Origin: an uncultured Oscillospiraceae bacterium | GTDB lineage: Bacteria; Bacillota; Clostridia; Oscillospirales; Acutalibacteraceae | Assembly: GCA_948471205.1 (NCBI GenBank) | Contig: CAOKRT010000005.1 | Coordinates: 1-64,000, forward strand | Direction: 5' to 3' | Length of the DNA: 64,000 bases | In this document: positions 29,035-42,960 of the stretch, in pieces | Layout: each line of letters begins with the position of its first letter | How positions within the stretch are numbered: the stretch's first letter is position 1 | Made by a program: the position numbers and the translations under genes | Notes under the pieces: model-generated | Told to the model about the DNA's origin: nothing | Database searches by the model: none | Seen by the model: the letters and a program-made list of their open reading frames with translations, nothing else

Positions 29035-29247
29035 ATGGAAAAATATGTTGATATGTTCAATCCTGCTTTTTTAAATAAAAAAAGCCCGGTTTTGCCTCCG
29101 CTTCCTTCTGATGCTTCGGTTACAATGGCTTATGTGCCGTTTCAGCAGCAGCCGATTATATATGATGACGAAAAAACAGCTTTGTTTGAGGGAACTTTAT
29201 TTCCTGAACTTAACAAGCCTTTCACAGGAAAAGGAGTGCGTTTATGA
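29035..29247 (+). CDS. cotJA: Spore coat-associated protein CotJA
   Basis: 70-residue proline-rich small protein with VTMAYVPFQQ and the C-terminal ALFEGTLFPELNKPFTGK pattern of CotJA, a component or assembly partner of the coat CotJC complex. AAAGGAG lies about 8 nt before the ATG. Its stop overlaps the cotJB start by four bases. Confidence 0.92.
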   Translation: MEKYVDMFNPAFLNKKSPVLPPLPSDASVTMAYVPFQQQPIIYDDEKTALFEGTLFPELNKPFTGKGVRL

Positions 29248-29483
29248 CAAGAGAACAAATGCTTTTAAGAGTATCCGCCGCTCAGTTTGCAATGTGGGAA
29301 ACAAGAGTTTATATGGATACGCACGCTGATAATGCAGAAGCAAGAAAACTTTATGAAAAATATCACCGTCAGTTTGAAGAATTAAAGGCAGAATTTGAAG
29401 CAAAATTCGGACCGATAACCCTTGGCGAAAACAACAGCGATGAATGGCTGAAAGACCCATGGCCGTGGGATGCCGACTGCTGA
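29244..29483 (+). CDS. cotJB: Spore coat protein CotJB
   Basis: 79 residues with QFAMWETRVYMDTHADNAEA and YHRQFEELKAEFEAKFGPIT, ending WLKDPWPWD, the CotJB pattern. AAAGGAG precedes the ATG inside cotJA. cotJC, normally next in the operon, is here about 2.7 kb away beyond a minus-strand sugar gene group and is itself interrupted. Confidence 0.93.
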   Translation: MTREQMLLRVSAAQFAMWETRVYMDTHADNAEARKLYEKYHRQFEELKAEFEAKFGPITLGENNSDEWLKDPWPWDADC

Positions 29484-29507
29484 TATGCTGCTGTTTTCAT
29501 AATATAA

Positions 29508-29535
29508 AAAGCCTTTTCCAAACGGAAAAGGCTTT
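29508..29535. terminator. Bidirectional terminator between cotJB and the GtrA gene
   Basis: AAAGCCTTTTCC/GGAAAAGGCTTT, perfect 12-bp stem with a 4-nt loop. T-rich on both sides (TTTTTATATT minus, CATTTTTATT plus). Confidence 0.88.
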
Positions 29536-29540
29536 CATTT

Positions 29541-30014
29541 TTATTCTTTGCTTTTTTTCTTTTTGGCAAAAATAACAAATTTGCTGAAAAAATAATTCAG
29601 AATGACAACGATTACGGCAAGCACAAGCTTTGCAATGATTTTTCCTGTAAATTCAAACCCGAAAATTTCAAACGAAAATTCATCAAATCCCAATTTTTCA
29701 ACAAACAGCCACAAACCGCCCTCTTCAACAAGCAGGCTGAAAATTCTTGCAGCAAAAAACTCCGGCACTTCCTTAACCAGCACCTTTGGCGCCCAGCTTT
29801 TGGAATCAAACACCCACAGCTTATTTGTAATATACGCAAAAACAACCGAAACAAACCAAGCTATTACGTTATTAACCAGATAATAGCTTTCGCCAAGGGC
29901 TTTATTAAGCACCCAGTAAACAGCGAAATTTACAACCGTTGTTAATCCGCCGAACACAACATACAAAATCAGCTCTTCATATTTTTTTAAAAGTTCTTTA
30001 ATCTTCTTCATCAT
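29541..30014 (-). CDS. GtrA-family membrane protein
   Basis: 157 residues, four membrane spans, with VVFGGLTTVVNFAVYWVLN, the AYITNKLWVF motif and a C-terminal LNYFFSKFVIF, typical of GtrA. These proteins are thought to help move or present undecaprenyl-phosphate-linked sugars. The start lies inside the 3' end of the GT2 gene (17-base overlap), a pairing typical of GtrA/GtrB. Confidence 0.92.
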   Translation of the reverse strand: MMKKIKELLKKYEELILYVVFGGLTTVVNFAVYWVLNKALGESYYLVNNVIAWFVSVVFAYITNKLWVFDSKSWAPKVLVKEVPEFFAARIFSLLVEEGGLWLFVEKLGFDEFSFEIFGFEFTGKIIAKLVLAVIVVILNYFFSKFVIFAKKKKSKE

Positions 30015-30945
30015 CTTTACCTAAATGCTCTTTCAGTATATATACAGGTCTGTTTTTTACCTGAACATAAATTTTTGAAATATATTCTCCGAGTATTCCG
30101 AGACAGAATAGCTGAAGTCCGCCAAGAAGCAGAACAAGCACAACAATGGTTGCATATCCCGGCACGCTGATTCCGAATGCAAGCTTCTGAACCACAACCA
30201 CTATAAGATATATTACAGAAATCAACGCGGAAAAAAAGCCTATATACGCCGAAAGTTTAAGCGGAAATGTAGTAAATGAAACAATTCCTTCCACAGCATA
30301 TTTCAAAAGCTTTCTGAAATTCCACTTTGATTCGCCGCTCTCTCTTTCTTCAACCGTGTAAGGTATATATTCTGTATTGAACCCAACCCAACTGAAAATA
30401 CCCTTTGAAAAACGGTGATATTCTGTCATTTCAAGAATTGCATTAACCATATTTCTTTTCATAAGCCTGAAATCCGAAGCGCCGCTTACGAAATCCACCT
30501 CGGTTATCTTATTAATTATTTTATAAAAAGCATTTTTAAACGAAATCATAATCCGGCTTTCCCGACGCTTGTCCTGATAAGCAGTTACACAATCAAGTTC
30601 TTCATTGCCGTTCATCACATCAAGCATTTCAAGCACAACCTCGGGGCGCTGCTGCAAATCGGCATCTATAAGACAAACCATATCCCCTTTAGCGGCATTC
30701 AGCCCGGCATAAATAGCAGATTCTTTACCAAAATTTCTGCTGAAGGAAAGCACCTGCATTTTGGAATCTTTATTTTCATTATAAAGCTTTCTTAAACGGC
30801 TCTGTGTTTTATCCTTGCTTCCGTCATTGACAAAAACAAATTCATATTCAAAGTCTCTGCCGTTAAAGGCTTTATTGGTTTCGGAAAAAAACTTTTCAAC
30901 ATTGCCCTCTTCATTATAACAAGGCACAACAAGAGAAAGAAACAT
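29998..30945 (-). CDS. GtrB-like family 2 glycosyltransferase
   Basis: 315 residues. The GT2 domain at about 1-230 has LSLVVPCYNEEGNVEKFF, FVNDGSKDKT, VCLIDADLQQRPE and the SKWNFRKLLKYAVEGI motif, followed by two C-terminal membrane spans (about 230-295). It resembles bactoprenol/dolichol-phosphate hexosyltransferases that charge polyprenyl phosphate with a sugar. GAGGTAGC precedes the ATG. Linked to gtrA-like and rfbB genes, pointing to envelope glycan decoration. Confidence 0.92.
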   Translation of the reverse strand: MFLSLVVPCYNEEGNVEKFFSETNKAFNGRDFEYEFVFVNDGSKDKTQSRLRKLYNENKDSKMQVLSFSRNFGKESAIYAGLNAAKGDMVCLIDADLQQRPEVVLEMLDVMNGNEELDCVTAYQDKRRESRIMISFKNAFYKIINKITEVDFVSGASDFRLMKRNMVNAILEMTEYHRFSKGIFSWVGFNTEYIPYTVEERESGESKWNFRKLLKYAVEGIVSFTTFPLKLSAYIGFFSALISVIYLIVVVVQKLAFGISVPGYATIVVLVLLLGGLQLFCLGILGEYISKIYVQVKNRPVYILKEHLGKDDEED

Positions 30946-31072
30946 AAGCTACCTCTTTACAAAAATCAATATCGCAACATTGCATTAATGTTACAATAAT
31001 ATAGTTTACCACTTAATGTAAAATATTTCAACACGATATCATAAATAAAATACATAAGACTCCGCAGGCTTT

Positions 31073-32101
31073 TTAAATAAAATTTTCATCGCCGTAAAGC
31101 TGTTTAAAACAGTTTCTGCATTCGCTGTTTATTACACTTTTGCACCATGCCATATTTTCTGTATACCAGTCAACTGTTTTTTTTATGCCTATACCAAATT
31201 CCGTTTCGGGATGCCAGCCAAGCTTTTTTTCTGCTTTTGAAAAATCAATACAGTATCTTTTGTCATGCCCCAGCCGGTCTTTAACAAAATCAATCAGTTT
31301 TTTGGATTTTCCAAGATTATTCAAAATCATTTCAACCGTTTCCAAATTGCTTTTTTCATTACGGCTTCCGATATTATATATTTCGCCTGCCCTGCCGTTT
31401 TGCAAAGCCAAGGCAACTGCACGGCAATGATCTTCAACATAAATCCAGTCGCGCATATTTTCGCCGGTGCCGTAAACGGGAATTGTTTTATTTTCATAAG
31501 CCCGGCAAATGGCAAGCGGTATCAGCTTTTCCGGAAACTGATACGGTCCGTAATTATTGGAACAGCGCGAAACCGTTGCATTCAGACCGTATGTTTTATA
31601 ATACGACAGCACCATAATATCTGCCGCCGCTTTGGAAGCGGCATAAGGTGATGCTGCATTAAGCGCACTTTCTTCATTAAAGCATACGTTTTGGGATTCC
31701 AACGGCAAATCGCCGTAAACTTCATCCGTTGAAATCTGATGAAAACGTTTCACCGCATGTTTTCTGCAGGCATCAAGAAGCACTTGTGTGCCGATAATAT
31801 TTGTTTTAAAAAACAGAGCGGCATTATTTATGGAACGATCCACATGCGTTTCTGCCGCAAAATTTACAACAGCTTCCGGTTTTTCCGATGAAAAAATTTT
31901 ATCTATTTCCGTTTCATCTGTAATATCCGCTTTACAAAAAGAAAAATTCGGATTTTTCATAACCGGTTCAAGCGTTTTAATGTTTCCGGCATAAGTAAAC
32001 TTATCAACACAAATAATTTTGTGTTCCGGATAATTTTTCAGCATATAAAAAATAAAATTAGAGCCGATAAATCCGGCGCCGCCCGTAACAAGCATTTTCA
32101 T
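31073..32101 (-). CDS. rfbB: dTDP-glucose 4,6-dehydratase
   Basis: 342-residue extended SDR: GGAGFIGSNFIFYML (NAD site), DEVYGDLPLESQ (catalytic Thr-Asp-Glu region, with STDEVYG), the YAASKAAAD Tyr-Lys pair, and RCSNNYGPYQFPEKLIPLA. It makes dTDP-4-keto-6-deoxyglucose for rhamnose-type sugars. rfbA, rfbC and rfbD are not in the window. GGAGG precedes the ATG. It ends near cotJC on the opposite strand. Confidence 0.93.
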   Translation of the reverse strand: MKMLVTGGAGFIGSNFIFYMLKNYPEHKIICVDKFTYAGNIKTLEPVMKNPNFSFCKADITDETEIDKIFSSEKPEAVVNFAAETHVDRSINNAALFFKTNIIGTQVLLDACRKHAVKRFHQISTDEVYGDLPLESQNVCFNEESALNAASPYAASKAAADIMVLSYYKTYGLNATVSRCSNNYGPYQFPEKLIPLAICRAYENKTIPVYGTGENMRDWIYVEDHCRAVALALQNGRAGEIYNIGSRNEKSNLETVEMILNNLGKSKKLIDFVKDRLGHDKRYCIDFSKAEKKLGWHPETEFGIGIKKTVDWYTENMAWCKSVINSECRNCFKQLYGDENFI

Positions 32102-32195
32102 AAAGCATACCTCCGATTTATATATTAAAAATTATATAATCGAAATCTGCCAAAGTCAATCCGATATAATATGAATGGCAATATTATTTTTAATA

Positions 32196-32204
32196 CATAT
32201 TATA
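32196..32204 (+). promoter_or_regulatory. Candidate mother-cell (sigma-K/E-like) -10 upstream of cotJC
   Basis: CATATTATA matches the sigma-K -10 pattern CATANNNTA and 6/8 of the sigma-E -10. No convincing -35 lies at the right distance, so this is weak. It is 29 bases before the cotJC ATG. Confidence 0.3.
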
Positions 32205-32232
32205 TAATGAATAATAAATAAGGAGAAATTAT

Positions 32233-32325
32233 ATGTTTAGTTATGTAAAAAAACTTCAGTATCCTGTTAATATAAAACACTGCGATCCTGCCGCCGCAAA
32301 TATAATAATAAGCCAATATGGCGGA
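32233..32325 (+). pseudogene. cotJC: cotJC 5' exon-like half (codons 1-31), interrupted by element
   Basis: AAGGAG and an ATG at 32233 begin the first 31 residues of CotJC, FSYVKKLQYPVNIKH then AAANIIISQYGG. After GGA at 32323-32325 the sequence leaves the family and the frame ends uselessly at 32427 (TGCKKILLFKFLTRYFI...). The lost continuation, PDGELGASLRYLSQR, is found in frame at 34344. Precise joining at GGA gives 178 codons plus stop, the normal CotJC length. I type this as broken because the gene cannot be expressed as it stands, but it is probably a reversible interruption, not decay. CotJC is a manganese-catalase-like coat protein; this half holds none of the metal ligands. Confidence 0.88.
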
Positions 32326-32344
32326 ACGGGCTGTAAAAAAATAT
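32323..32344 (+). repeat. attL inner arm of the cotJC element
   Basis: GG core at 32323-32324, 7 nt, then the arm TGTAAAAAAATAT at 32332-32344. Its reverse complement matches 11 of 13 bases of the arm ATATCTTTTTTCA at 34321-34333, which lies 7 nt from the other GG core. The arm overlaps the stop of the antisense small ORF. Confidence 0.65.
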
Positions 32345-32514
32345 TACTTTTTAAATTTCTGACCAGGTATTTCATTTATATTCTGTGTGTAATAAGCACT
32401 TACAGAGGCCGACAGCCTGCTGCTTAAAACCGTTTTATCTTCCTGTGAAAAATCATGGAAGTTCTGAACATCACCGTTTCTTTCAACAAATAAGCAAACA
32501 GATAATTTTGCCAT
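32344..32514 (-). CDS. Small antisense ORF in the cotJC element, candidate directionality factor
   Basis: A 56-residue ORF beginning MAKLSVCLFVERNGDVQN and containing FSQEDKTVLSSRLSASVSAY, ending GQKFKK. GAGGTGACC lies about 5 nt upstream of the ATG, a strong ribosome site. It is below usual length cutoffs. The SQEDK...LSSRLS...YY layout resembles, from memory, small proteins encoded beside clostridial large serine recombinases; no domain name is certain. It ends inside the attL arm and runs opposite to the recombinase. Large serine recombinases need a separate small directionality factor to excise, and this is the only other protein gene in the element, so that role is the leading guess. Confidence 0.65.
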   Translation of the reverse strand: MAKLSVCLFVERNGDVQNFHDFSQEDKTVLSSRLSASVSAYYTQNINEIPGQKFKK

Positions 32515-32524
32515 AAGGTCACCT

Positions 32525-32539
32525 CAGTAATACTTACTG
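32525..32539. repeat. Palindrome beside the small-ORF ribosome site
   Basis: CAGTAA-TAC-TTACTG, perfect 6-bp dyad just upstream of GAGGTGA on the minus strand. It could be an operator or a small hairpin next to the ribosome site. Confidence 0.4.
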
Positions 32540-32572
32540 CGGCGGCAGCATGTCTTATGAAAAATACAATAT

Positions 32573-32602
32573 AAATGCAAATTTTTTAGCGTTTTTGCAT
32601 TT
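32573..32602. terminator. Hairpin between the small ORF and the recombinase
   Basis: AAATGCAAA/TTTGCATTT, perfect 9-bp stem with a 12-nt loop. The plus-strand copy is followed by TTTCATT. It could end plus-strand transcription entering the element from cotJC or from across attP, or be an operator. Confidence 0.4.
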
Positions 32603-32711
32603 TTTCATTACAATAACGTATGCCAAAAGAGATTTTACAGAACAATCTTTATAATATTAAAACAAATATATTATGGCAAAATATATAATTTTGAGAAAAG
32701 GAGTATAAGTT

Positions 32712-34151
32712 ATGAACATAAAAATAGGTGCGGCATACATAAGGGTTTCGGATGAACGCCAGGATGAATACTCGCCTGAAAGCCAATTAAAACTTATAAG
32801 GGAATACGCCAAAAGCAATCATTATATTATCCCCGATGAATATATATACTATGACGACGGAATAAGCGCCAAAAGCGTGAAAAACAGAATTGCCTTTAAC
32901 AAAATGATTGCGCTTGCAAAATCCGAAGCTAAGCCGTTTCATGCCATTTTTGTATGGAAATTCAGCCGTTTTGCACGAAATCAGGAAGAAAGCATTGTTT
33001 ATAAATCACTTTTGAAAAAAAACGGTGTAAGTGTAATCAGTGTTTCCGAACCGATTGTAGATGATGTTTTCGGAAATTTAATTGAACGTATTATTGAATG
33101 GATGGATGAATATTATTTAATCCGGTTAAGCGGAGAAGTAAAACGCGGAATGGCGGAAAAAGCATCGCGCGGAGAACCTATGTGCCACCCTGCCTTCGGA
33201 TACGACCTTATTAACAAAAAATATATTCCCAATGAAGAAAGCAAATATGTTGTTCAGATTTTTGAAAACTATTTAAATGGTATGGGAGAACGGGAAATAG
33301 CCCGAATTCTAGCTTTGCAGAATGTAAAAACACACCGCGGCAACCCGCCTGACAAGAGGCTGATTGATTATATACTGCATAATCCGGTTTATATAGGAAA
33401 AATACGGTGGTCAACAGACGGAAAAGCGGCATCGGCAAGAGATTATAATAATCCGAATATAATTATTGCAGACGGTATGCATGAACCGATTATTGATGAA
33501 AACACATGGAACAAAGTGCAGAAAAAACTTGCTGAAGCAAAGCAGAAATACGGTCATTACCAGCGAAAGGAACAAACGGTTAAGTTTATGCTGAAAGGTC
33601 TGGTAAGATGCAGCAACTGCGGTGCAACACTTGTTTTGCAGTCAACAAAATGTCCTTCCATTCAATGTCACAATTATGCAAAAGGTTCCTGCAAAACATC
33701 ACACAGTCTTTCTGTTGCAAAAGCAAATAAAGCAGTTATTGAAGCACTTGAAAAAGCAGTAAAAACCCTTGATTTTAAAATTGAGCCTGAAATAAAAAAG
33801 AATATATACAGCAATATTGATTATCAAAAACTGATTCAAGCCGAAAATACCAAACTGCAGAAAATCAAAGAAGCTTATTTAAGCGGAATTGACACGTTGG
33901 AGGAATACAAGCAGTGTAAAGCAAATATACTTAACACTATCAAAAATCTTGAAGCAGATAAGAAAAAGCAGGAAAAAGCCAACAAAGCTATTGATAAAAA
34001 AGTATTTTCAAGGCAGATTGTAAATGTTATAGATTTTATCAAATCGCCGGATGTTTCGGAAAAGGCAAAAAACGAGGCACTGCGGTCCATAATAAAAGAA
34101 ATCACTTTTGTTAAACCTGAAAACCGTTTGGATATTATTTTTTATGTATAA
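32712..34151 (+). CDS. Large serine recombinase of the cotJC element
   Basis: 479 residues. The N-terminal resolvase domain has AAYIRVSDERQDEYSPESQ (catalytic Ser13), YDDGISAK, and VWKFSRFARN. The 'recombinase' domain (about 155-270) has HPAFGYDLINKKYIPNE and the GEREIARIL helix. The zinc-ribbon domain (about 295-330) has CSNCGATL and CHNYAKGSC. A coiled-coil follows (about 375-445), then the family C-terminus. Such enzymes integrate by attP x attB and excise only with a directionality factor. Start has AAAAGGAG upstream. It is the main gene of the element splitting cotJC. Confidence 0.95.
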   Translation: MNIKIGAAYIRVSDERQDEYSPESQLKLIREYAKSNHYIIPDEYIYYDDGISAKSVKNRIAFNKMIALAKSEAKPFHAIFVWKFSRFARNQEESIVYKSLLKKNGVSVISVSEPIVDDVFGNLIERIIEWMDEYYLIRLSGEVKRGMAEKASRGEPMCHPAFGYDLINKKYIPNEESKYVVQIFENYLNGMGEREIARILALQNVKTHRGNPPDKRLIDYILHNPVYIGKIRWSTDGKAASARDYNNPNIIIADGMHEPIIDENTWNKVQKKLAEAKQKYGHYQRKEQTVKFMLKGLVRCSNCGATLVLQSTKCPSIQCHNYAKGSCKTSHSLSVAKANKAVIEALEKAVKTLDFKIEPEIKKNIYSNIDYQKLIQAENTKLQKIKEAYLSGIDTLEEYKQCKANILNTIKNLEADKKKQEKANKAIDKKVFSRQIVNVIDFIKSPDVSEKAKNEALRSIIKEITFVKPENRLDIIFYV

Positions 34152-34158
34152 AATATAG

Positions 34159-34189
34159 AAACAGGCTTCCTTTCCGGCGAAGCCTGTTT
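34159..34189 (+). terminator. Terminator of the element recombinase
   Basis: AAACAGGCTTC/GAAGCCTGTTT, perfect 11-bp stem with a 9-nt loop, 8 bases past the stop, followed by an AT-rich stretch. It should insulate the recombinase transcript from cotJC. Confidence 0.75.
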
Positions 34190-34244
34190 AAAATATTTAA
34201 ATAAACATCTGTCCCGGGCATTTTCGTTTATTTAATGACAAAAC

Positions 34245-34274
34245 TTGACGATAATTATATATATTTGATATAAT
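34245..34274 (+). promoter_or_regulatory. Outward sigma-A promoter at the right end of the element
   Basis: TTGACG, 18-nt spacer, TATAAT with TG one base before the -10. It starts transcription near 34281, pointing across the right junction into the cotJC 3' half and the following secreted-protein gene. In an excised circle the same promoter would read across attP towards the recombinase. Confidence 0.65.
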
Positions 34275-34320
34275 AAATTCGAAAATTACTTTCGGGTTTA
34301 TTTTTTTTGCATATGAAATC

Positions 34321-34342
34321 ATATCTTTTTTCATTTAAGAGG
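34321..34342 (+). repeat. attR inner arm of the cotJC element
   Basis: Arm ATATCTTTTTTCA at 34321-34333, 7 nt, then core GG at 34341-34342. It pairs with the left arm at 32332-32344 (11 of 13) as a mirror-symmetric half site, as in serine-recombinase attP sites. Confidence 0.65.
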
Positions 34343-34343
34343 A

Positions 34344-34787
34344 CCAGACGGAGAACTTGGAGCGTCGCTGCGGTATCTTTCTCAGCGCTATTCAATGCCG
34401 ATTCCCGAACTGAAAGGTTTGCTTACCGATATAGGAACAGAAGAACTGGGTCATCTTGAAATGGTTGGCACAATTGTTCACCAGTTAACAAGAAATCTTA
34501 CGGAAAAACAGATTGAAGAAAGCGGATTTGCACCATATTTTGTGGATCATACAACAGGTGTTTATCCCACTGCCGCAAGCGGATTTCCATGGAGCGCCGC
34601 TTCCATTCAGGTTACAGGAGATCCCATTGCCGATTTAAATGAAAATCTGGCAGCAGAACAAAAAGCAAGAGTAACCTATGATAATATTTTACGTTTGGTT
34701 GACGATCCTGATGTTCTTGAACCGATAAAATTTTTAAGAGAACGTGAAATTGTGCATTACCAGAGATTCGGTGATTCGCTTCGTTAA
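34344..34787 (+). pseudogene. cotJC: cotJC 3' half (codons 32-178)
   Basis: The frame opens right after GGA at 34341-34343 with PDGELGASLRYLSQRYSMPI, continues through TEELGHLEMVGTIVHQL and ends EIVHYQRFGDSLR. This is the ferritin-like manganese-catalase fold of CotJC. It holds the Glu/His metal ligands (DGELGA, TEELGHLE, and the C-terminal REREIVH). There is no start codon or ribosome site at its 5' end; an internal ATG at 34395 would drop the first ligand region. It is the missing part of the fragment at 32233-32325. Confidence 0.9.
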
Positions 34788-34840
34788 ACTTGTAAACAGT
34801 TTGCATATAGTTTGAAAGATCAGGCAGGAAGGTGAATATA

Positions 34841-35833
34841 ATGAAGAAAATTGCATTGTTTTTATTAACGCTTATATTTACTTCCTATCCGCTTTATGCT
34901 TTTTCGGCAGAACCTGATTTTATAAACAATCCCGAATTGTGGTATGAAACAGATACTATCACTACTGTTGAAATAAAAGACGCAAACAAAATAACGGGAA
35001 TATACAGTTATTACTCAGACACAGCACGCCACAGAATTTTTTTCCGTATCGTTTACGAAGAAATCAGCCTTACAAACGAATACAATGATATAAAGGCAGA
35101 ATTCAATATATCCAATGAAAATCACAGCTACTGCTTTACGGTCAATGAAAACGGTTTAACGGATAAAAATTCAAAAATAAACAGTGCCTTCACCATTACG
35201 CAGAATTTCGGTTTTCCGTCCGAACAGGGCCATGAAATATATCTTGGTATTGAATTCAAAGACAAACAGGATATAAAATGCAATAATATTTTAAGCTTTT
35301 CTTTAAATATTAACGGAAACAATTATAATATTTGCAAAGGAATATTTCTTCCCTATTTCATTGAAGAAACAACAAAAACACCAGCCGCTGACGAAAAAAC
35401 AAGCACATCGGCAGACAATATTACACAACATACAACGAAACAAAATAAACTGCCTGTTTCCGATCAAAAACATTCTGATAAAGAAACGGACAAGACAGCA
35501 GAACCGACAACAAAATTCAAGTATATTCCATCCGAAAGTCAGAAACCCGAAAACAGTTTATGGAATTATGAAAACACAAGTTCTGAGGCAGAGGATTTTT
35601 CTGATGAGGAAAATGAATATTTTGAAAACGCAGACAATACGGCTTTGCCAAACATAATCATTCCATCGCCGGAAATACAGTCATCCTTATCACCATCTGC
35701 AAAAGCATTGATTGCCGGTGCTGTTTTACTGATTGCTGCCGGTTTATCAATTATTATATATTGCTGTTTTAAACCTGCAGCCACAAAACATACGGAATCA
35801 GAACATGCAGAAGAAACAACAGATGAATCATAA
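34841..35833 (+). CDS. Secreted, C-terminally anchored protein downstream of cotJC
   Basis: 330 residues from the ATG at 34841 (AGGAAGGTG upstream; an in-frame GTG overlaps that site). It has a signal peptide (KKIALFLLTLIFTSYPLYAF, then SAEP), a beta-rich N-terminal domain about 25-175, a long Thr/Lys/Ser-rich low-complexity linker about 175-285, and a C-terminal membrane span (ALIAGAVLLIAAGLSIIIY) with a short tail. No family recognised. It lies 53 bases after cotJC with no terminator between, so it probably shares whatever transcript reads the cotJC 3' half. Confidence 0.75.
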   Translation: MKKIALFLLTLIFTSYPLYAFSAEPDFINNPELWYETDTITTVEIKDANKITGIYSYYSDTARHRIFFRIVYEEISLTNEYNDIKAEFNISNENHSYCFTVNENGLTDKNSKINSAFTITQNFGFPSEQGHEIYLGIEFKDKQDIKCNNILSFSLNINGNNYNICKGIFLPYFIEETTKTPAADEKTSTSADNITQHTTKQNKLPVSDQKHSDKETDKTAEPTTKFKYIPSESQKPENSLWNYENTSSEAEDFSDEENEYFENADNTALPNIIIPSPEIQSSLSPSAKALIAGAVLLIAAGLSIIIYCCFKPAATKHTESEHAEETTDES

Positions 35834-35840
35834 ACACTTA

Positions 35841-35867
35841 AAAAGAGCGTGCCGAACACGCTCTTTT
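35841..35867 (+). terminator. Terminator of the cotJC-downstream gene
   Basis: AAAAGAGCGTG/CACGCTCTTTT with a 5-nt loop and TTTT run, 8 bases past the stop. Confidence 0.9.
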
Positions 35868-35995
35868 TTATTGAAACAGACAAAAGAATATATTATAATT
35901 ATTATACCGTTCTTTACTTTGTCTGTCCGGAACAAATGCATTATCATAAAAACAGTATTACAGCAAAACATATGGCTAAAAAGGAAAATACAACT

Positions 35996-36274
35996 ATGAA
36001 AACAGATTTAACAGCTATACCCTACGTAGGTAAAAAAAGCAAACAATCTTTAAACAATATCGGAATTGAATATGTTGAGGACTTGGTTGGGAAAGATCCT
36101 GAAGACCTTTATATTAAGGATTGTCTTGCAAAAGGTTTTCAGGAAGACCGCTGCCAGCTTTATCTTTTCAGAATGGCGGTTTATTTTGCGGAACACAAAC
36201 ATTATGAAGAGGAAAAACTGAAATGGTGGTATTGGAAAGACAAGAAATACCCTATAAAATCAGAGGAAATATGA
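35996..36274 (+). CDS. Cdd1-like helix-hairpin-helix protein
   Basis: 92 residues with TAIPYVGKKSKQSLNNIGI (HhH motif), VEDLVGKDPEDLYI, CLAKGFQEDRCQLYLFRMA and EEEKLKWWYWKDKKY, the 'pathogenicity locus' Cdd1 family. Probably nucleic-acid binding; role unknown. I chose the ATG at 35996 with AAAAAGGA about 9 nt upstream, although an in-frame ATG at 35972 exists. Confidence 0.85.
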   Translation: MKTDLTAIPYVGKKSKQSLNNIGIEYVEDLVGKDPEDLYIKDCLAKGFQEDRCQLYLFRMAVYFAEHKHYEEEKLKWWYWKDKKYPIKSEEI

Positions 36275-36275
36275 A

Positions 36276-36806
36276 ATGATTGAATACAGAAATATAACAG
36301 AAAAAGAGCTGACCATGGATTTATTCAGCAAATTTATACGCCGCCAGGTTGTTACAAAGGTTTGGCGCAGGGAAAACGGACAATGGATTATAAAAGAAGA
36401 GCCTTTTATTGATGACTGGACACCTGAAGATTTTGCCTTTGGAATTTCCTGTATAAAAAACACTGTAAAAACAGGCGGTCTGCTTTACGGTGCGTTTTCA
36501 GACGGCGCACTGAAAGGATTTGTTTCCGTTGAAGCTGAAATATTCGGTGGCATACATAAATATATGGATTTAACAAGTATTCATGTTTCGGCAGATATGC
36601 GTAAAAGCGGAATTGGCAGACAGCTTTTTTATAAGGCAAAAGAATGGGCAAAAGAAAAAGGCGCAAAAAAGCTCTACATTTCTTCGCACAGCGCTGTTGA
36701 AAGCCAGGCATTTTATAAAAGCATGGGATGTTCGGAAGCGGCAGTTTATAACAAAGCACATACTGAAAAAGAACCTTTTGATGTACAGCTTGAATGCTGG
36801 ACATGA
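36276..36806 (+). CDS. GNAT-family N-acetyltransferase
   Basis: 176-residue acetyltransferase. The acetyl-CoA site is in SADMRKSGIGRQLFYKAKEW, then KKLYISSHSAVESQAFYKSM in the final GNAT motif. GAGGAAATATGAA precedes the ATG, which overlaps the end of the Cdd1-like gene region, so the two are cotranscribed. Substrate unknown. Its 3' end abuts a phosphatase pseudogene. Confidence 0.88.
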   Translation: MIEYRNITEKELTMDLFSKFIRRQVVTKVWRRENGQWIIKEEPFIDDWTPEDFAFGISCIKNTVKTGGLLYGAFSDGALKGFVSVEAEIFGGIHKYMDLTSIHVSADMRKSGIGRQLFYKAKEWAKEKGAKKLYISSHSAVESQAFYKSMGCSEAAVYNKAHTEKEPFDVQLECWT

Positions 36807-37061
36807 TACCGGCTTTGGAAACCAGAATGAGGAATATAAAAATGCAGCAGAGATGCTGACCAATGGGGATATAATATTGTGAAAACCATTGAAGCAAGAA
36901 GCACATATAATACAGAAGACTGACTTATCATTATCTCAACAGACCATGGCGGTACGGAATACGGTTACGGCGGTCAGTCTGTATTTGAAAGAATGACATG
37001 GCTTTCCTGCAATAAAACAATTGATATGAGCGAAGAAAACCTTCCTTTTGAAAACAAATAA
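36796..37061 (+). pseudogene. 3' remnant of an alkaline-phosphatase-superfamily enzyme
   Basis: Beginning inside the last codons of the GNAT gene in another frame, AGHDTGFGNQNEEYKNAAEM is followed by a frameshift and then WGYNIVKTIEARSTYNTED, an in-frame TGA where Trp is expected, and LIIISTDHGGTEYGYGG up to a TAA at 37059-37061. The AGHDTG and STDHGG motifs are metal-binding blocks of nucleotide pyrophosphatase/phosphodiesterase-like proteins. The 5' part is missing. Clear pseudogene. Confidence 0.8.
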
Positions 37062-37070
37062 AAAATGGCA

Positions 37071-37109
37071 AAAGCCGCAGATTATGCTTTATACATAGCC
37101 TGCGGCTTT
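37071..37109. terminator. Terminator after the phosphatase remnant
   Basis: AAAGCCGCAG/CTGCGGCTTT stem with a 19-nt loop, followed by CATTTTTTGC. Confidence 0.75.
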
Positions 37110-37177
37110 CATTTTTTGCTTATATCGTTTTTTTGTAATATGAAATAACACTCATCTGAATCAATTTTCTTCTGTAT

Positions 37178-37649
37178 TTAATACAATTCTTTTTTATGGT
37201 TAAAATGTATTCCGATATGCCCAACAGAAAGAAAAACCACCGAAACAATAAGAATAATATTTCTGCCGTAAATACCCAGCAGAAAAAAAGCAATGCACGG
37301 CAGTGTTGCCCCGGCAACCGGAATACCAAACAGACTGCTGTAAAAATCAGTCATCGTTTTTCCGCTTTTAAAATATTTTATCCAGTAAACTTCATAAAGA
37401 ATCATACATATAAAGGAAACTGCCAGCCAAATTGTGTTTACCGACAGATTATGTATATTAAAATCTTTGAATATCAGAACTGTACCTACAACAAACACCT
37501 GACCGGCATTTTCAAAAATTTTCAGTATTCTGTTTTCATTTTTTGCATATTTATCATAATCCTGCGGTTTATTTTTTTGTCCATAATAAATTCGGCACAA
37601 AAAGCATAATCAGATATATCAGTCCGGCATAGGAAAAACCAAAATTCAT
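37178..37649 (-). pseudogene. Multi-span membrane protein with a frameshift in a T7/A7 run
   Basis: From an ATG at 37649 (AAAGG upstream) the frame reads MNFGFSYAGLIYLIMLFVP and stops after LLWTKK because of an A7 run (T7 at 37572-37578 on the plus strand). With six A's it continues as TKNKPQDYDKYAKNENRIL and on through three or four further membrane spans to HKKELY at 37178. The joined protein matches the length and style of a Firmicutes membrane-protein family I cannot name. It could be a pseudogene, a phase-variable homopolymer, ribosomal slippage, or a sequencing error. Confidence 0.75.
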
Positions 37650-37667
37650 AATACCTTTCCTTCCGTT

Positions 37668-38675
37668 TTACAAACTGAAATCCGGCAGTTCATCAAGCGT
37701 TATTACATATTCACTGTTATAGATTTCCTTCAGATGCTGTTCAGAATTTGTATCTGTAAGCCATTCCGTATGCCATGTCATAAAAGAGCACCACGGTATC
37801 TGCTTAAACTGTTCAGCAGAAGGTATCAAACCGCATTCATGAAAAATCAAAGGCTTTCTGCCCTCTGTAATTCTGCTGACTATTTTATACAGCCGTTTTT
37901 CTGCTCCGTTTTCATCAACCTCATAGCTGTCTGCACCCACAATATCGCAGTATGCGTCACCGGGATACCATTCTGCCGGCTTTCCCTTATAATCCGTGCC
38001 GTTATGCGAATAGCCCAAAACCCAGATAAGATTATTTAATTCCAAATCATATGTAAAGTGATTATACATCATAATCCAAAGCTTTTTAAAATATTCGGCG
38101 CCGCCTTTTCCCCACCAGAACCATGCGCCGTCAAATTCATGAAACGGTCTCCAAAGCACCGTTACACCCTTTTCCTGAAGGCGTTTCAAAGCTTGGCCGG
38201 CATTATCCATATTCTTTATAAATTTCCGATTTTCATCTGTTCCGTCTGTAAGTACTGCATCCCAGTCTGCAATTTCATCATTTTTGCAATTGTCATATGC
38301 ACCGGTGAATTCACTGCCGCAGTGCCAGCAGATTGTAACCAAGCCGCCTTTATTCCACCAATTCACAGCTCTTTCCACAACGCCGTCAAAGTCATCATTC
38401 ATAAAATCAAGCCCGCGCATTGCCGGCAGTTTTCCTGTTGCCTTTAAAATATAATCCATTTCATATTCTGTGCTGCCCATCCATGTGGATTCCTGCTGCG
38501 CTGCTATAATGCCGTTTTCAAAAGTATCACAAATGTAAGCATAAACCTTTTTCGTGGTTTCATCCGCATTTTTATTACTGAGCTTCATGGCTGTTTTATC
38601 CGTGATTGGCATACTGCATGAACAAAAAAATGCAAAACAGCAGAATAAAAGAATACCCTTAAATATTTTCTTCAT
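37668..38675 (-). CDS. GH26 beta-mannanase-like lipoprotein
   Basis: 335-residue surface lipoprotein: signal peptide with lipobox FFCSC (Cys20), then a GH26 barrel. The acid/base Glu is in WRPFHEFDGAWFWWG and the nucleophile Glu in KPLIFHECGLIPS; WHCGSEF and GADSYEV are further family blocks. GH26 enzymes cut beta-1,4-mannan and related glycans, so this protein probably processes plant mannan outside the cell. Monocistronic in appearance. Confidence 0.9.
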   Translation of the reverse strand: MKKIFKGILLFCCFAFFCSCSMPITDKTAMKLSNKNADETTKKVYAYICDTFENGIIAAQQESTWMGSTEYEMDYILKATGKLPAMRGLDFMNDDFDGVVERAVNWWNKGGLVTICWHCGSEFTGAYDNCKNDEIADWDAVLTDGTDENRKFIKNMDNAGQALKRLQEKGVTVLWRPFHEFDGAWFWWGKGGAEYFKKLWIMMYNHFTYDLELNNLIWVLGYSHNGTDYKGKPAEWYPGDAYCDIVGADSYEVDENGAEKRLYKIVSRITEGRKPLIFHECGLIPSAEQFKQIPWCSFMTWHTEWLTDTNSEQHLKEIYNSEYVITLDELPDFSL

Positions 38676-38718
38676 TATACATCTCTCCTCTCCGCTTCTG
38701 TTCTAAAATAAAAATATA

Positions 38719-39237
38719 TTACCGCATTTTCAATTCAATATCCACTTCATAATCTTTATCAATCAAAACAGTGTTGCACCCGTATTTTCTGCACATTTCT
38801 AAATTGTAAGTATTTTCTCGAAGCAGTTCTTCTTTTGTTAAATCATCGGAAATACGGCTTTCAATGCAATTTTCATACTTTTTTATATCGTCAAAATGCT
38901 TTTCAATATATTCCGCCGTCATAACAAGGCAATAAAACTTTATATTGTTTAGATAATCCTCTGCAAAATCCTTTTCCCAGTCAAACGGAATATAACAGCC
39001 CTCCACAATTAAATTTTGCCTGTTCTCAATTGCCGTTTTTACCATTTCCTTCACAATATTCCAAAGATAAGGCGTAAGCTTTTCATCATCATAAACGGTT
39101 AAACCCGTGCTGCCGCTTCTGATAAGTCCCATTTTTAAATGATCTATGGAAAAATACGGATATTTATATTTTTCAAGCAGTCTTTGTGCAAGCCTTGTTT
39201 TTCCCGTATGCGTTGCACCTGAAATCAGTATAATCAA
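38719..39237 (-). CDS. P-loop kinase-like ATPase
   Basis: 172 residues. Walker A is ISGATHTGKTRLAQRLL at the N-terminus; YFSIDHLKMGLIRSG and LIVEGCYIPFDW are the substrate- and Walker-B-like parts of small adenylate-kinase-like phosphotransferases. It starts with TTG at 39237 behind GGAGTG. Substrate unknown. The start sits immediately downstream of an acetyltransferase pseudogene. Confidence 0.8.
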   Translation of the reverse strand: MIILISGATHTGKTRLAQRLLEKYKYPYFSIDHLKMGLIRSGSTGLTVYDDEKLTPYLWNIVKEMVKTAIENRQNLIVEGCYIPFDWEKDFAEDYLNNIKFYCLVMTAEYIEKHFDDIKKYENCIESRISDDLTKEELLRENTYNLEMCRKYGCNTVLIDKDYEVDIELKMR

Positions 39238-39252
39238 GCTTTATCACTCCTT

Positions 39253-39574
39253 TATGTTTAAAACATACTGCAGTTCACGCAGCATTTTTCCGCCGATTGT
39301 ATCATCCATATATTCACCGCTGTATCTATTCTGTTATACAGAACTACCAATTATCCAGAAAACGATAGCGAAATGCTTCTATTTCATTTGCACAGCGGCA
39401 TACAGCATTCACCATAGCTAGTGTAAAGGACAAATACTTTACTTTTGTTTTTTTACAAAATCGGTTACATCAACCTCAAATGTAACACAAAAAGCAGGTT
39501 CTATACAGTTTTTAAAAACAGCACAGTGCGTAATCCCAGCCATTCATATCTATCGTTTTATATGTTTTTTCCAT
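39253..39574 (-). pseudogene. CatA-like (chloramphenicol acetyltransferase family) pseudogene
   Basis: ATG at 39574 behind GGTGAAAG opens EKTYKTIDMNGWDYAL, then stops. Frame changes recover AVFKNCIEPAFCVTFEVD, VTDFVKK, KYLSFTLAMVNAVCRCANEI, EAFRYRFLDN and VVLYNRIDTA, the N-terminal half of the CAT/CatA-like O-acetyltransferase family. At least three frameshifts or stops are needed. The C-terminal half with the catalytic His is missing. It fills the 350-base gap between the P-loop ATPase and the DUF6194 gene. Confidence 0.8.
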
Positions 39575-39591
39575 ATCTTTCACCATATACA

Positions 39592-40041
39592 TTATAGTTT
39601 CTTTTTACAATATTTCTCTTTTGCATAATCATAGGCTTCCAAAATAAGCGGCTTTAATTGTTCAAAAGTTTGCATGCCGGGGTTCAGCACACATATCCAG
39701 CTCATCCATGCATATACCGGATGCGGCATAATTTTATCCGGCTGCGTAAAATCAAAATCCATATTCACAATGCCGCCTTTTGAAGGGCGTTTCGGCACGG
39801 TGCCGAACATATTCGTAAAGGTGCGTTTTCGTATTCCTATATTCACACGGTATATGCCTTCTCTGTAAAGGTCTGAACCTTTATCATTTTCGCCGTCTTT
39901 TTCTTTAACAGTAAGAATATATATGCCCCGCTTCAGCTTGTTTTCGGGGTTATAAAAGATTCCGCTTTCGCCCCAGCTATTCACCAAAACCGTGCCATAT
40001 AAATTTTTAAGGCAATAATTCAATATTTCTTCTGATTGCAT
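39592..40041 (-). CDS. DUF6194 family protein
   Basis: 149 residues with VNIGIRKRTFTNMFG, FDFTQPDKIMPHPVYAWMSW and ICVLNPGMQTFEQLKPLI, the DUF6194 pattern. Cytoplasmic; function unknown. Starts four bases downstream of the deaminase stop, so the pair is probably one transcript. Confidence 0.82.
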   Translation of the reverse strand: MQSEEILNYCLKNLYGTVLVNSWGESGIFYNPENKLKRGIYILTVKEKDGENDKGSDLYREGIYRVNIGIRKRTFTNMFGTVPKRPSKGGIVNMDFDFTQPDKIMPHPVYAWMSWICVLNPGMQTFEQLKPLILEAYDYAKEKYCKKKL

Positions 40042-40045
40042 ATCA

Positions 40046-40510
40046 TTAACCTTTTTTATGCTCGGAAAAATAATTTTTCAATATTTTCAAGCTCTTTTCA
40101 CGCAGAATTCCCGCTGTAACCTTTGGCTGGCGAAAAGAATTTTCAAAAACCACAGCACTGCAATCGCAGCCCTTATTTCCCAGCATTTCTTCCAAGTCAT
40201 TATTTCCTGCCGAAAAAACAAGCCTGCCAAGATTCAGCCAAACCATTGCACCGCTACACATAAAACACGGCTCGCAGCTTGAATACAGCGTATAATCCCT
40301 TAAATCCGTAATGCCTGTTTCGGCACAGAACAGCCGAAGCAAGCCCATTTCCGCATGAAATGTAGGATCGTTTTTTGTATAAATCTGATTTTCATTTGTA
40401 TAAACGATCTGATTATCTTTCACAAGCACTGCTCCAAACGGCTCATTTCCGTGTTCCGCTGCCAGTGCAGACAGTTCTATTGCTTTTTCCATAAAATATT
40501 CATCGTTCAT
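40046..40510 (-). CDS. Nucleoside/guanine deaminase
   Basis: 154-residue cytidine-deaminase-fold enzyme with the zinc motif TFHAEMGLLRLF (His, catalytic Glu) and SCEPCFMCSGAM (two Cys ligands). The AEHGNEPFGAVLV block is typical of guanine/tRNA-adenosine-type deaminases. The ATG at 40510 has AAAGGAG upstream; the longer frame lacks a site. Confidence 0.88.
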   Translation of the reverse strand: MNDEYFMEKAIELSALAAEHGNEPFGAVLVKDNQIVYTNENQIYTKNDPTFHAEMGLLRLFCAETGITDLRDYTLYSSCEPCFMCSGAMVWLNLGRLVFSAGNNDLEEMLGNKGCDCSAVVFENSFRQPKVTAGILREKSLKILKNYFSEHKKG

Positions 40511-40722
40511 ATGTAATACTCCTTTTAACAAACAAAATGCTTTATTTAAAATTAAAATATTCAACTAAATTATATAATAAAAACGCTTTTATGTAAACAT
40601 ATTAAAAAACAGCGCATCCCAAATTGAACCCAATGTATTTTCACCTGTGTTTTACTTTTTTATCGCACGGAATAACACACCCTGCTCCTTCAATATACAT
40701 TACTGAAAGGAGCAATGAATAT

Positions 40723-40905
40723 ATGAGAAAACCGTTTATAAATGAAAAACTAATTTACAGTTATGAAACCGTGCTTGGAAAAAACACAATCGTAATTAAC
40801 GAATACGCCCCATTGCTTTCCGCTTATGAAATACAGTTAAATAAAACGGATGTAAAAAATTTTCTTGCAGAAATATTTGATAAAAATGAAGAATCGGCTA
40901 TATGA
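40723..40905 (+). CDS. Small ORF coupled to the second serine recombinase
   Basis: 60 residues from MRKPFINEKLIYSYETVLG to KNEESAI, starting 10 nt after AAAGGAG. Its stop overlaps the recombinase ATG by four bases. No domain recognised. Tight coupling suggests a partner or regulator of the recombinase, possibly a directionality factor. Confidence 0.65.
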   Translation: MRKPFINEKLIYSYETVLGKNTIVINEYAPLLSAYEIQLNKTDVKNFLAEIFDKNEESAI

Positions 40906-42401
40906 TTGCCATCTACGCCCGCCAGTCGGTTGAAAAGGAAGACAGTATTTCTATTGAATCGCAAATTGAAATGTGCACCTACGAAGCAAGAGGAGAGCCG
41001 TTTTTAATATACCAGGACAAAGGTTTCAGCGGAAAAAATACAAACCGCCCCGCATTTCAGCAAATGATGCAGGATATTGTAAGCGGACAAAAAGGAATTA
41101 TAAAGGTTATTGTTTATAAGCTTGACCGAATCAGCCGCAGCATTCTTGATTTTTCCAATATGATGGATACCTTCGGCAGGCTTGGTGTGGAATTTTCATC
41201 AGCAACAGAAAAATTTGATACAGGCACACCTATGGGCAGAGCAATGCTGAATATCTGTATAACCTTTGCCCAGCTTGAGCGTGAAACCACCCAGCAAAGA
41301 GTTCGTGACAATTACATAGCCCGCAGTCAGAAAGGCTTTTATATGGGAGGTCCTGTTCCTATTGGATTCAAAAAGACCAACCTTACTATGGACGGCATTA
41401 AAACATCTATGTATGAACAAATTCCCGAAGAGACCGAATTAATAACCAAGGTGTTTGAAATGTATGCGGATGTAAATTATTCAAATGAAGATATCGCAAA
41501 AACAATTCGTAATATGCCGCCGGAATACAGAAGAAACCGAACGGTTACCAGGGCAAGAATTCAGGATATTATCAAAAACCCTGTTTATGTAAAAGCAGAT
41601 ATAAATGTATATCATTTTTTCAAATCAAAGGGTGTTAAAATAATTAATCCACCCCGGGATTTTATCGGAACAAACGGCTGTTATCTTTACACAGGCAATC
41701 AGGAAACAAGAAAACAGACAGATTTATCAAATACAGTTCTGGTAATTGCCCCGCATAAAGGATTTATTCATTCTGACTTATGGATAAAATGCAGAGAAAG
41801 AGCGCTTGCCCAGCAACAGATTAAGCGTAACCCAAAAGCGAAAAACACCTGGCTTGCGGGGCTCGTAAAGTGCGGAAACTGCGGTTATGCGCTTGTGCGG
41901 AAAAACTATGCCAAGAAAAACAAAAGCTATTTTATGTGTTCTCATAAAACAAATGATAATCTGTGCTGCGGCTGCGGCACAATAAACGCAGATGCATTTG
42001 AAAAACTGATTATGCAGAAAATCAAAGCAAAGCTTGCCGATTTAAAAGAATTTGAAATTGCAGAAGTTTCCACCGGAAATTCTGAGATTGAAAAATTAAA
42101 GACCAAAATTACTGCCATAGAAAATGAAATTAACGAAACCATTCGAAATGTTGCAGGCGCAAGCGATACCGTTATGGCATATATCAACGAAAACATTGAA
42201 AAATTGCACAGTGATAAAATGCAGATTCAGACAGAGATTCAGCAAATCAGCAGATGCAGCTATGCTGCAAATAAAAAAATTATTTGTGATTTTGATAAAT
42301 TTGATGAACTGCCGTTTGAACGTAAACGCACACTTGCAAATGCGGTAATCAAAAAAATTTATGCAACAAGTGATAAAATGGATATCATTTGGAATATATA
42401 A
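40902..42401 (+). CDS. Second large serine recombinase
   Basis: 499 residues. The resolvase domain has IAIYARQSVEKEDSISIES (catalytic Ser8), YQDKGFSGKNTNRP and VYKLDRISRS. The recombinase domain has GGPVPIGFKKTNL; the zinc ribbon has LVKCGNCGYALVRKN and CSHKTN; a coiled coil (about 385-450) and an LPFERKRTLANAVIKKI tail follow. It differs clearly from the recombinase in cotJC. It lies between the deaminase and GH36 genes with no detected att repeats; adjacent remnants suggest a decayed element. Confidence 0.94.
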   Translation: MIAIYARQSVEKEDSISIESQIEMCTYEARGEPFLIYQDKGFSGKNTNRPAFQQMMQDIVSGQKGIIKVIVYKLDRISRSILDFSNMMDTFGRLGVEFSSATEKFDTGTPMGRAMLNICITFAQLERETTQQRVRDNYIARSQKGFYMGGPVPIGFKKTNLTMDGIKTSMYEQIPEETELITKVFEMYADVNYSNEDIAKTIRNMPPEYRRNRTVTRARIQDIIKNPVYVKADINVYHFFKSKGVKIINPPRDFIGTNGCYLYTGNQETRKQTDLSNTVLVIAPHKGFIHSDLWIKCRERALAQQQIKRNPKAKNTWLAGLVKCGNCGYALVRKNYAKKNKSYFMCSHKTNDNLCCGCGTINADAFEKLIMQKIKAKLADLKEFEIAEVSTGNSEIEKLKTKITAIENEINETIRNVAGASDTVMAYINENIEKLHSDKMQIQTEIQQISRCSYAANKKIICDFDKFDELPFERKRTLANAVIKKIYATSDKMDIIWNI

Positions 42402-42402
42402 A

Positions 42403-42429
42403 AACGGTGCAGATTATTTCTGCACCGTT
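42403..42429 (+). terminator. Terminator of the second recombinase
   Basis: AACGGTGCAGA/TCTGCACCGTT, perfect 11-bp stem with a 5-nt loop, right after the stop. The U-tract is poor. Confidence 0.65.
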
Positions 42430-42960
42430 CATTATAATGATTACTTTTTACCATATAATGCTGAAAGCCTTTTTGCATAATATGCAAAGTTTCTCATACT
42501 CACCCTAATTTTCGTTTCCATCAATATATGTGTCCACTATAAAATAACAACTCAAAATTGTATTTCCTTTCTCCAAAAACAAATCTTATATATTGCAAAT
42601 ATCCCTAATATTGAGTCTGAATATAAAAAACAGGCTTTGCCTTATGTAATTTATTCCATTCAGATAATCTGTAATCCGGTATGATAAATGAATTGACATC
42701 TGCACAAAATTTACTGTAATTGAAAGAACCTTCTGACTGTATAGGAACTTATGATTTTATGAGCTATCGGGTATTTTTCTGCAAGATTGCCGATTTGGTG
42801 AAGGATTAAGGCTGTTAACAGATAAATTAAACAGCAAAAACTATTACGCATTCAATCCGGGCTTTGATAAGGGAAGATTGAAAAAATAATTTCGGAAAAA
42901 CTGCGTCAGCCAATTTTGTAATAATACAGTTTTTTATGAAATAATAAAACAAATAATTAA
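42430..42960. other. AT-rich region with degenerate coding remnants
   Basis: About 530 bases without an intact gene. On the plus strand at 42761-42889 an open stretch reads ELSGIFLQDCRFGEG and then TDKLNSKNYYAFNPGFDKG before a stop. One frame over, IISEKLRQPIL ends at 42921. This looks like a decayed gene end of unknown family. The rest (42430-42760) shows nothing I can support. Confidence 0.35.

Follow-up and report, generated by a model that had tools for sequence, protein, structure and literature searches.

In the 64,000-nucleotide stretch of DNA analysed here, referred to as the window and corresponding to contig 5 of a draft genome (G000; 1.85 Mb, 28 contigs, 98.9% complete) from a gut member of the Clostridia, the spore coat gene cotJC is a split gene. 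It is carried as three exons separated by two unrelated gene-intervening elements, A and B, and we consider it fairly likely that both are excised in sporulation, as skin and gin are. Joining the three exons gives an in-frame, stop-free CotJC of 203 aa with the full conserved tail. The host genome has sporulation machinery, including Spo0A, SpoIVA and one gene for a small acid-soluble spore protein (SASP), and cotJC is a gene expressed in the mother cell. The parts of the gene are as follows.

32233..32325, + strand: cotJC exon 1, codons 1-31 (matches Pfam Mn_catalase over 1-31 with E 1.1e-7; G035 is among the relatives in which it runs on into exon 2)
34344..34774, + strand: cotJC exon 2, from codon 32 up to and including base 2 of codon 175 (Pfam Mn_catalase positions 33-190)
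42802..42889, + strand: cotJC exon 3, third base of codon 175 through the stop codon (the tail of relatives matches here by tblastn, E 2e-16)

The three exons and the two elements

An original prediction, made from the sequence, had cotJC split after codon 31 at GGA 32323-32325 with codon 32 following GGA 34341-34343, and this is read directly in the DNA. It also held that removal of 2018 bp from GG to GG restores the frame, and the join is indeed in frame with Mn_catalase matching both parts; the large serine recombinase (LSR) that it placed in the insert is borne out as a 479-aa protein with Resolvase, Recombinase and Zn-ribbon domains. The end of the gene was misjudged. The 178-codon frame taken to finish at 34787 is some 25 C-terminal codons shorter than intact relatives, and its stop, 34785-34787, lies within the left arm of element B and is not the end of cotJC. 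The missing tail, RFGEGLRLLTDKLNSKNYYAFNPGFDKGRLKK, is matched at 42791-42886, behind a second LSR (40902-42401), so that the true gene has 203 codons. A near-minimal, two-gene form is an apt description of element A, which has its LSR, a 56-aa protein and both attachment (att) arms, and overlooks the second element of 8,027 bp. An intact second cotJC, which the prediction saw as a threat to its case, was sought with a family search; in this genome, 98.9% complete, the search gave the two parts in exons 1 and 2 and no second copy. The split is therefore confirmed, though incomplete as first described, and there is good support for a site-specific LSR element whose removal from cotJC leaves the frame intact.

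Serine integrases recombine at a two-base core, and the candidate cores here, GG at what will be called site 1 (codon 31) and GA at site 4 (codon 175), are placed as follows.

32323..32324, + strand: left GG core, in attL of element A (common to both sides in site-1 pairs)
34341..34342, + strand: right GG core, in attR of element A (from core comparison and dyad)
34773..34774, + strand: left GA core, in attL of element B (both sides of site-4 pairs have it)
42800..42801, + strand: right GA core, in attR of element B (from site-4 core comparison)

In each of the 14 site-1 exon pairs examined, the window's included, GG stands on both sides at one and the same codon and the CotJC frame carries through; because of this, and because cotJC pieces adjoin relatives of the LSR, the layout of exons 1 and 2 is not a matter of chance. 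When attP was inferred for element A and 11 relatives by placing right and left arms together, and dyads were scored against shuffles, the best dyad was centred on GG in 12 of 12, with p<0.05 in 10 (the two above that level being the window's own, p 0.86, and that of G027, p 0.064). None of the 12 site-1 attB joins reaches a dyad p<0.05. The left and right sides of all 10 site-4 pairs have GA in common; nine of these pairs have their dyad centre on it and four attain p<0.05. In closely related elements at both sites the recombinase gene can stand at either element end and in either orientation with respect to cotJC.

32325..34342: element A at site 1, spanning 2018 bp between cores (probably a reduced prophage)
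32344..32514, - strand: 56-aa protein, candidate recombination directionality factor of A (from position and homologues in site-1 elements)
32712..34151, + strand: large serine recombinase A, 479 aa (Pfam PF00239, PF07508, PF13408; PHROG 95 integrase)
34160..34188, + strand: terminator-like hairpin behind recombinase A (read by eye)

Recombinase A matches the PHROG 95 phage serine integrase with E 3e-104 and is the sole long open reading frame (ORF) in 32325-34342, where there are no phage structural genes. At the same cotJC codon, G108 (matched record JARHZA010000002.1) has a 30.6-kb prophage insert in which PHROGs recognises a terminase, a portal, a major head protein and a CI-like repressor. 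The integrase of this prophage and recombinase A have 71% identity, and a homologue of the 56-aa protein, 38% identical, lies divergent beside the CI-like repressor. With such a prophage at the same codon, element A is most simply seen as a prophage that has kept its integrase, the small protein and its two ends. Homologues of the 56-aa protein occur in the site-1 elements of G108, G103, G048, G023 and G027, and a profile built from these gave weaker matches in G025 and G051 and none in the stretches of G015. The protein has no Pfam or NCBIfam match and a weak PHROG match of function not known (E 0.028); a homologue matches phrog_26314, likewise of function not known (E 0.0007), the G048 homologue had no tblastn match in phage records, and the predicted fold (pLDDT 82, pTM 0.48) had no significant match in PDB. 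Its probable role as directionality factor is thus argued from position and co-occurrence.

34775..42801: element B, site 4, 8027 bp core to core (cargo island)
40723..40905, + strand: protein of ~60 aa whose gene overlaps the beginning of that of recombinase B; candidate directionality factor (conserved ORF; later start read from the alignment)
40902..42401, + strand: large serine recombinase B, 499 aa (Pfam and PHROGs)

Recombinase B also matches PHROG 95 (E 2e-85), and it has homologues of 81-84% identity in 10 other genomes of the genus, with partial ones at contig ends in 2 more. The ORF upstream of it, listed as 93 aa, is matched in all nine other site-4 loci that reach it, in both module orientations, and its ~60-aa product probably acts as the directionality factor of recombinase B. 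Among the other ORFs of element B are GH26, GNAT, Cdd1, DUF6194 and deaminase families and a weak zeta-toxin-like kinase match; no phage structural family was found among them with Pfam or PHROGs. Element B was also considered as vertically inherited within the genus, a reading abandoned because its orientation differs and its synonymous divergence (pS, with pN for nonsynonymous) is mostly lower than that of cotJC.

Recurrence and integrity of the interruptions

The original prediction had proposed looking in relatives for an uninterrupted cotJC and for the same insertion point, and both are there. CotJC was matched in 51 of the 80 genomes of the genus set, for which the split tally was combined by hand from several searches: the gene is contiguous, tail included, in 17 and split in 31; 2 (G009, G050) are unclassified and G013 has a distant paralogue only. 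There are four main split sites, at codons 31, ~64, ~136 and 175, here numbered 1 to 4. Four genomes (G004, G021, G024, G028) are cut at site 4, and in another four (G114, G117, G040, G038) the evidence for a site is a piece that ends there 40-300 bases from a contig end. At least ten genomes have two or more interruptions (G000, G015, G027, G103, G025, G048, G116, G098, G008, G011), with three in G025, G048 and G008. In G058 (L373, contig C27) cotJC codons 1-172 run stop-free into a 750-aa recombinase frame that reaches the contig end, and this arrangement at about codon 172 is perhaps another site or a fused form.

The association extends well beyond the genus. When relatives of the LSR were sought in one genome each of 84,980 species, a cotJC piece was present in the locus of 60 of the best 80 of 248 (a few of these being genus genomes), and in 58 of the 60 it lay at most 113 bp from the LSR. 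In IMG/VR, 8 of 75 LSR loci have a cotJC match. An LSR abuts cotJC in a complete Ruminococcus chromosome, and an LSR also lies next to a piece of cotJC in named isolates, among them Roseburia sp. 1XD42-69, Mobilitalea sibirica DSM 26468, Ruminococcus sp. FMBCY1 and Anaeromassilibacillus senegalensis An867, which opens the question to direct test. A Lachnospiraceae locus (L298, 6832-9329) has a near-minimal, 2.5-kb site-2 element made of an LSR and a 166-aa ORF without Pfam match. One record titled Bacteroides sp. (L242) carries cotJC together with Clostridia elements and is probably mislabelled.

Among 49 interruptions in the genus a full-length LSR is present at the break in 31 and visibly broken in none, with 18 undecided; by site the full-length counts are 9 of 11 at site 1, 11 of 20 at site 2, 1 of 3 at site 3, 10 of 14 at site 4 and 0 of 1 in G058. 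Recombinase B of G008 is whole, and reduced elements retain a full-length LSR. The undecided interruptions include three where the LSR is cut by a contig end (G015, G024, G106) and G058, where the fused frame reaches one; in the others no LSR is seen, mostly with ~1 kb or less of flank to read.

The original prediction also recognised that mutations accumulating in both halves of cotJC would count against it, and no decayed exon was seen. In 153 distinct cotJC high-scoring segment pairs (HSPs), split and contiguous, stops fall only outside the exon limits or at codons 199-200, and a rerun with all loci (164 HSPs) gave the same pattern; these HSPs, of at least 55% identity, are not independent of one another, and a piece far gone in decay would escape. 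Both ends lie in terminal or site bins, which make up 96 of the 203 codons, for all but 8 of the 153, and the ends pile up at codons 31-36, 64-66, 136 and 177. For exon 2 (pN 0.04 and pS 0.62-0.66 against G004 and G015) and for both recombinases (recombinase A against G015 having pN 0.136 and pS 0.736) pN/pS is low, a value that includes the time before insertion.

A pair of Roseburia loci, L270 from isolate 1XD42-69 and L276 from a metagenome genome, offers the strongest test of selection after insertion. A site-1 element of 4.6 kb, collinear between the two, and a site-2 recombinase are common to both. The site-1 cargo (L270/L276 2956-5513) is a hybrid histidine kinase of 850 aa that includes response-regulator domains. 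Among host genes pS is 0.39 for cotJA and 0.45 for cotJB (both named by Pfam) and 0.38 and 0.57 for two more genes upstream; it is 0.56 and 0.65 for the two recombinases and 0.22 for the kinase cargo gene, where partial recombination is possible. The recombinases are not less diverged than most host genes, and therefore common descent of the insertions is simplest. Exons 1 and 2 of cotJC differ by 2 nonsynonymous and 17 synonymous changes over 62 codons (Fisher p ~3e-11, with rounded site numbers). A gene broken before the Roseburia divergence would not look so, which suggests that these exons have been under selection while split, in a pair that appears to share its insertions by descent.

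The neighbourhood of cotJC in the window includes its usual partners at a distance.

29035..29483, + strand: cotJA and cotJB (Pfam CotJA, CotJB; 2.7 kb apart from cotJC)

Between these and cotJC (window 29035-32233) are apparent sugar-nucleotide and glycosyltransferase genes on the opposite strand, named by eye. The pair is also upstream of, and apart from, cotJC in G019 and G022, and is contiguous with it in Roseburia.

Proposed programmed excision and its rivals

In the reading that we favour, each element would have entered by serine-integrase recombination between attP and a conserved cotJC site (GG of codon 31 at site 1, GA of codon 175 at site 4), bringing its own LSR and a small protein able to act as directionality factor. 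During vegetative growth both elements would stay in place, and in sporulation the small proteins would switch the recombinases to excision in the mother cell. As the mother cell is discarded, the composite 203-aa CotJC could be made for the coat with the elements kept in the forespore chromosome.

A number of observations weigh against such programmed excision. No excised form was seen by any method used, and the exact attP junction of element A had no match in viral contigs. A scan with a loose sigma-E/sigma-K pattern, run with no control, gave a few weak matches and established no sporulation promoter. In the window itself the site-1 dyad is weak (11 of 22 pairs, p 0.86) and the site-4 dyad centre misses GA. 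Stretches of 1.9-3.5 kb at one end of the interruptions in G105 and G056 are without an LSR, as are 2.6 kb at one end in G106; the opposite ends are cut or unread, that of G106 with an LSR truncated by the contig end. The single-copy SASP gene of the same genome is also split by an LSR element.

L376 (G000 contig C1) 8836-9075, - strand: SASP gene (the single SASP gene found in the genome)
L376 (G000 contig C1) 6581-8263, - strand: SASP-element recombinase (its frame runs into the SASP tail)

A 2.3-kb LSR element interrupts the SASP gene close to the 3′ end, and its removal restores GGQMV followed by KKMIKAYEESMK in frame. The recombinase is present at 77% identity or more in 16 of the 80 genus genomes, its own included; the SASP tail pattern stands at its 3′ end in 13 of 15 loci, with the other SASP part in the same stretch in the window's genome only. 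There is an apparent second SASP insertion site, with pieces running to ~28 and from ~21 in profile positions, for instance in G025, G007, G106 and G034. SASP is a forespore gene, and therefore mother-cell excision does not explain this element. Excision in the forespore would reach the germ line, which leaves elements without reliance on a terminal cell, later reintegration, or safe harbours. A bolder proposal, which we put forward as tentative and think more doubtful than not, is that the genus routinely stores spore genes as DNA exons spliced by several independent recombinases, cotJC in up to four exons and SASP as well, with forespore excision followed by reintegration at outgrowth in a heritable cut-and-return cycle in each spore generation.

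The split SASP gene also speaks for spore genes being targeted as safe harbours, since they are silent in growth and partly dispensable, cotJC being merely inactivated and its exons intact because the insertions are young. Two further points favour this. Recombinase B is less diverged than cotJC in all 21 species pairs that leave out G000 (pS 0.27-0.59 against 0.65-0.87), and therefore elements move between species and some insertions may be recent. Also, 29 of the 80 genus genomes have no cotJC match (3 of them a tail match only), as do 12 of the 51 that are at least 90% complete, and therefore cotJC may be dispensable. The lack of any decayed exon among the 153 HSPs (pieces below 55% identity escaping), the strong exon constraint in two Roseburia loci whose two insertions seem to go back to a common ancestor and the full-length LSR kept in reduced elements argue the other way, and we regard simple inactivation as rather unlikely. 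Less likely again is active lysogeny, in which excision and reintegration would proceed at some rate in any cell, unrelated to sporulation, with a fraction of cells always intact. Integration is what serine integrases do by default, and a split forespore gene is readily accommodated. The yin element of C. botulinum gave mixed populations at all time points (PMC10747680). For cotJC, however, no polymorphic or excised form was seen, nor any attP junction in the viral-contig scan, with one genome per species. That the whole arrangement is an assembly artefact or chimera might be thought of for a draft of 28 contigs, but the same codon and att arms recur in many separate assemblies, the 30.6-kb insert is on one contig of a 3-contig genome and the LSR next to cotJC is there in a complete Ruminococcus chromosome, so that we give this hardly any credence.

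If excision from cotJC does occur on schedule, two independent recombinases, and elsewhere three, would act in the same terminal cell for the sake of one gene, and the element of 2 kb would amount to a minimal excision module found in nature, with LSR, candidate directionality factor and two att sites. A coat gene common in Clostridia would then join the known targets, and directionality could be probed with many combinations of LSR, small factor and att sites that belong together.

Relation to known intervening elements

The skin elements in sigK of B. subtilis and C. difficile are likewise LSR elements that split a mother-cell sporulation gene, and skinCd has an LSR and the recombination directionality factor CD1234 (PMC5025042). 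In contrast to skin, the target here is a structural coat gene and not sigma K, element A is only 2.0 kb, two elements share one gene, and excision is inferred from sequence. The gin element in gerE of B. cereus ATCC10987, 28.6 kb with three recombinases and an additional factor, GirX, is closest to element B in being a non-phage cargo island with an LSR in a sporulation gene (PMC5595907), whereas element B has 8.0 kb, one recombinase and a gene that it shares with element A. The SP-beta prophage, precisely excised from the spore-envelope gene spsM in sporulation (PMC4191935), is a further parallel, though element A retains no phage structural gene. For yin, a recombinase element in the spore gene yabG of C. 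botulinum V73 whose excised circle was seen, occurrence is reported as unique to one strain (PMC10747680), whereas insertions in cotJC recur across Clostridia. The phi027 prophage of C. difficile R20291 adjoins a gene for a CotJC homologue; there the CotJC-like gene is adjacent and is deleted along with the prophage, and is not split in frame (PMC11222575). No published split of cotJC was recognised in the literature searched, most subscription journals and all supplements being outside it. The class of sporulation gene-intervening elements is thus already known from skin, SP-beta in spsM, gin and yin, and what is new here is cotJC as target, the minimal prophage-derived form, the multiple elements per gene and their frequency across Clostridia.

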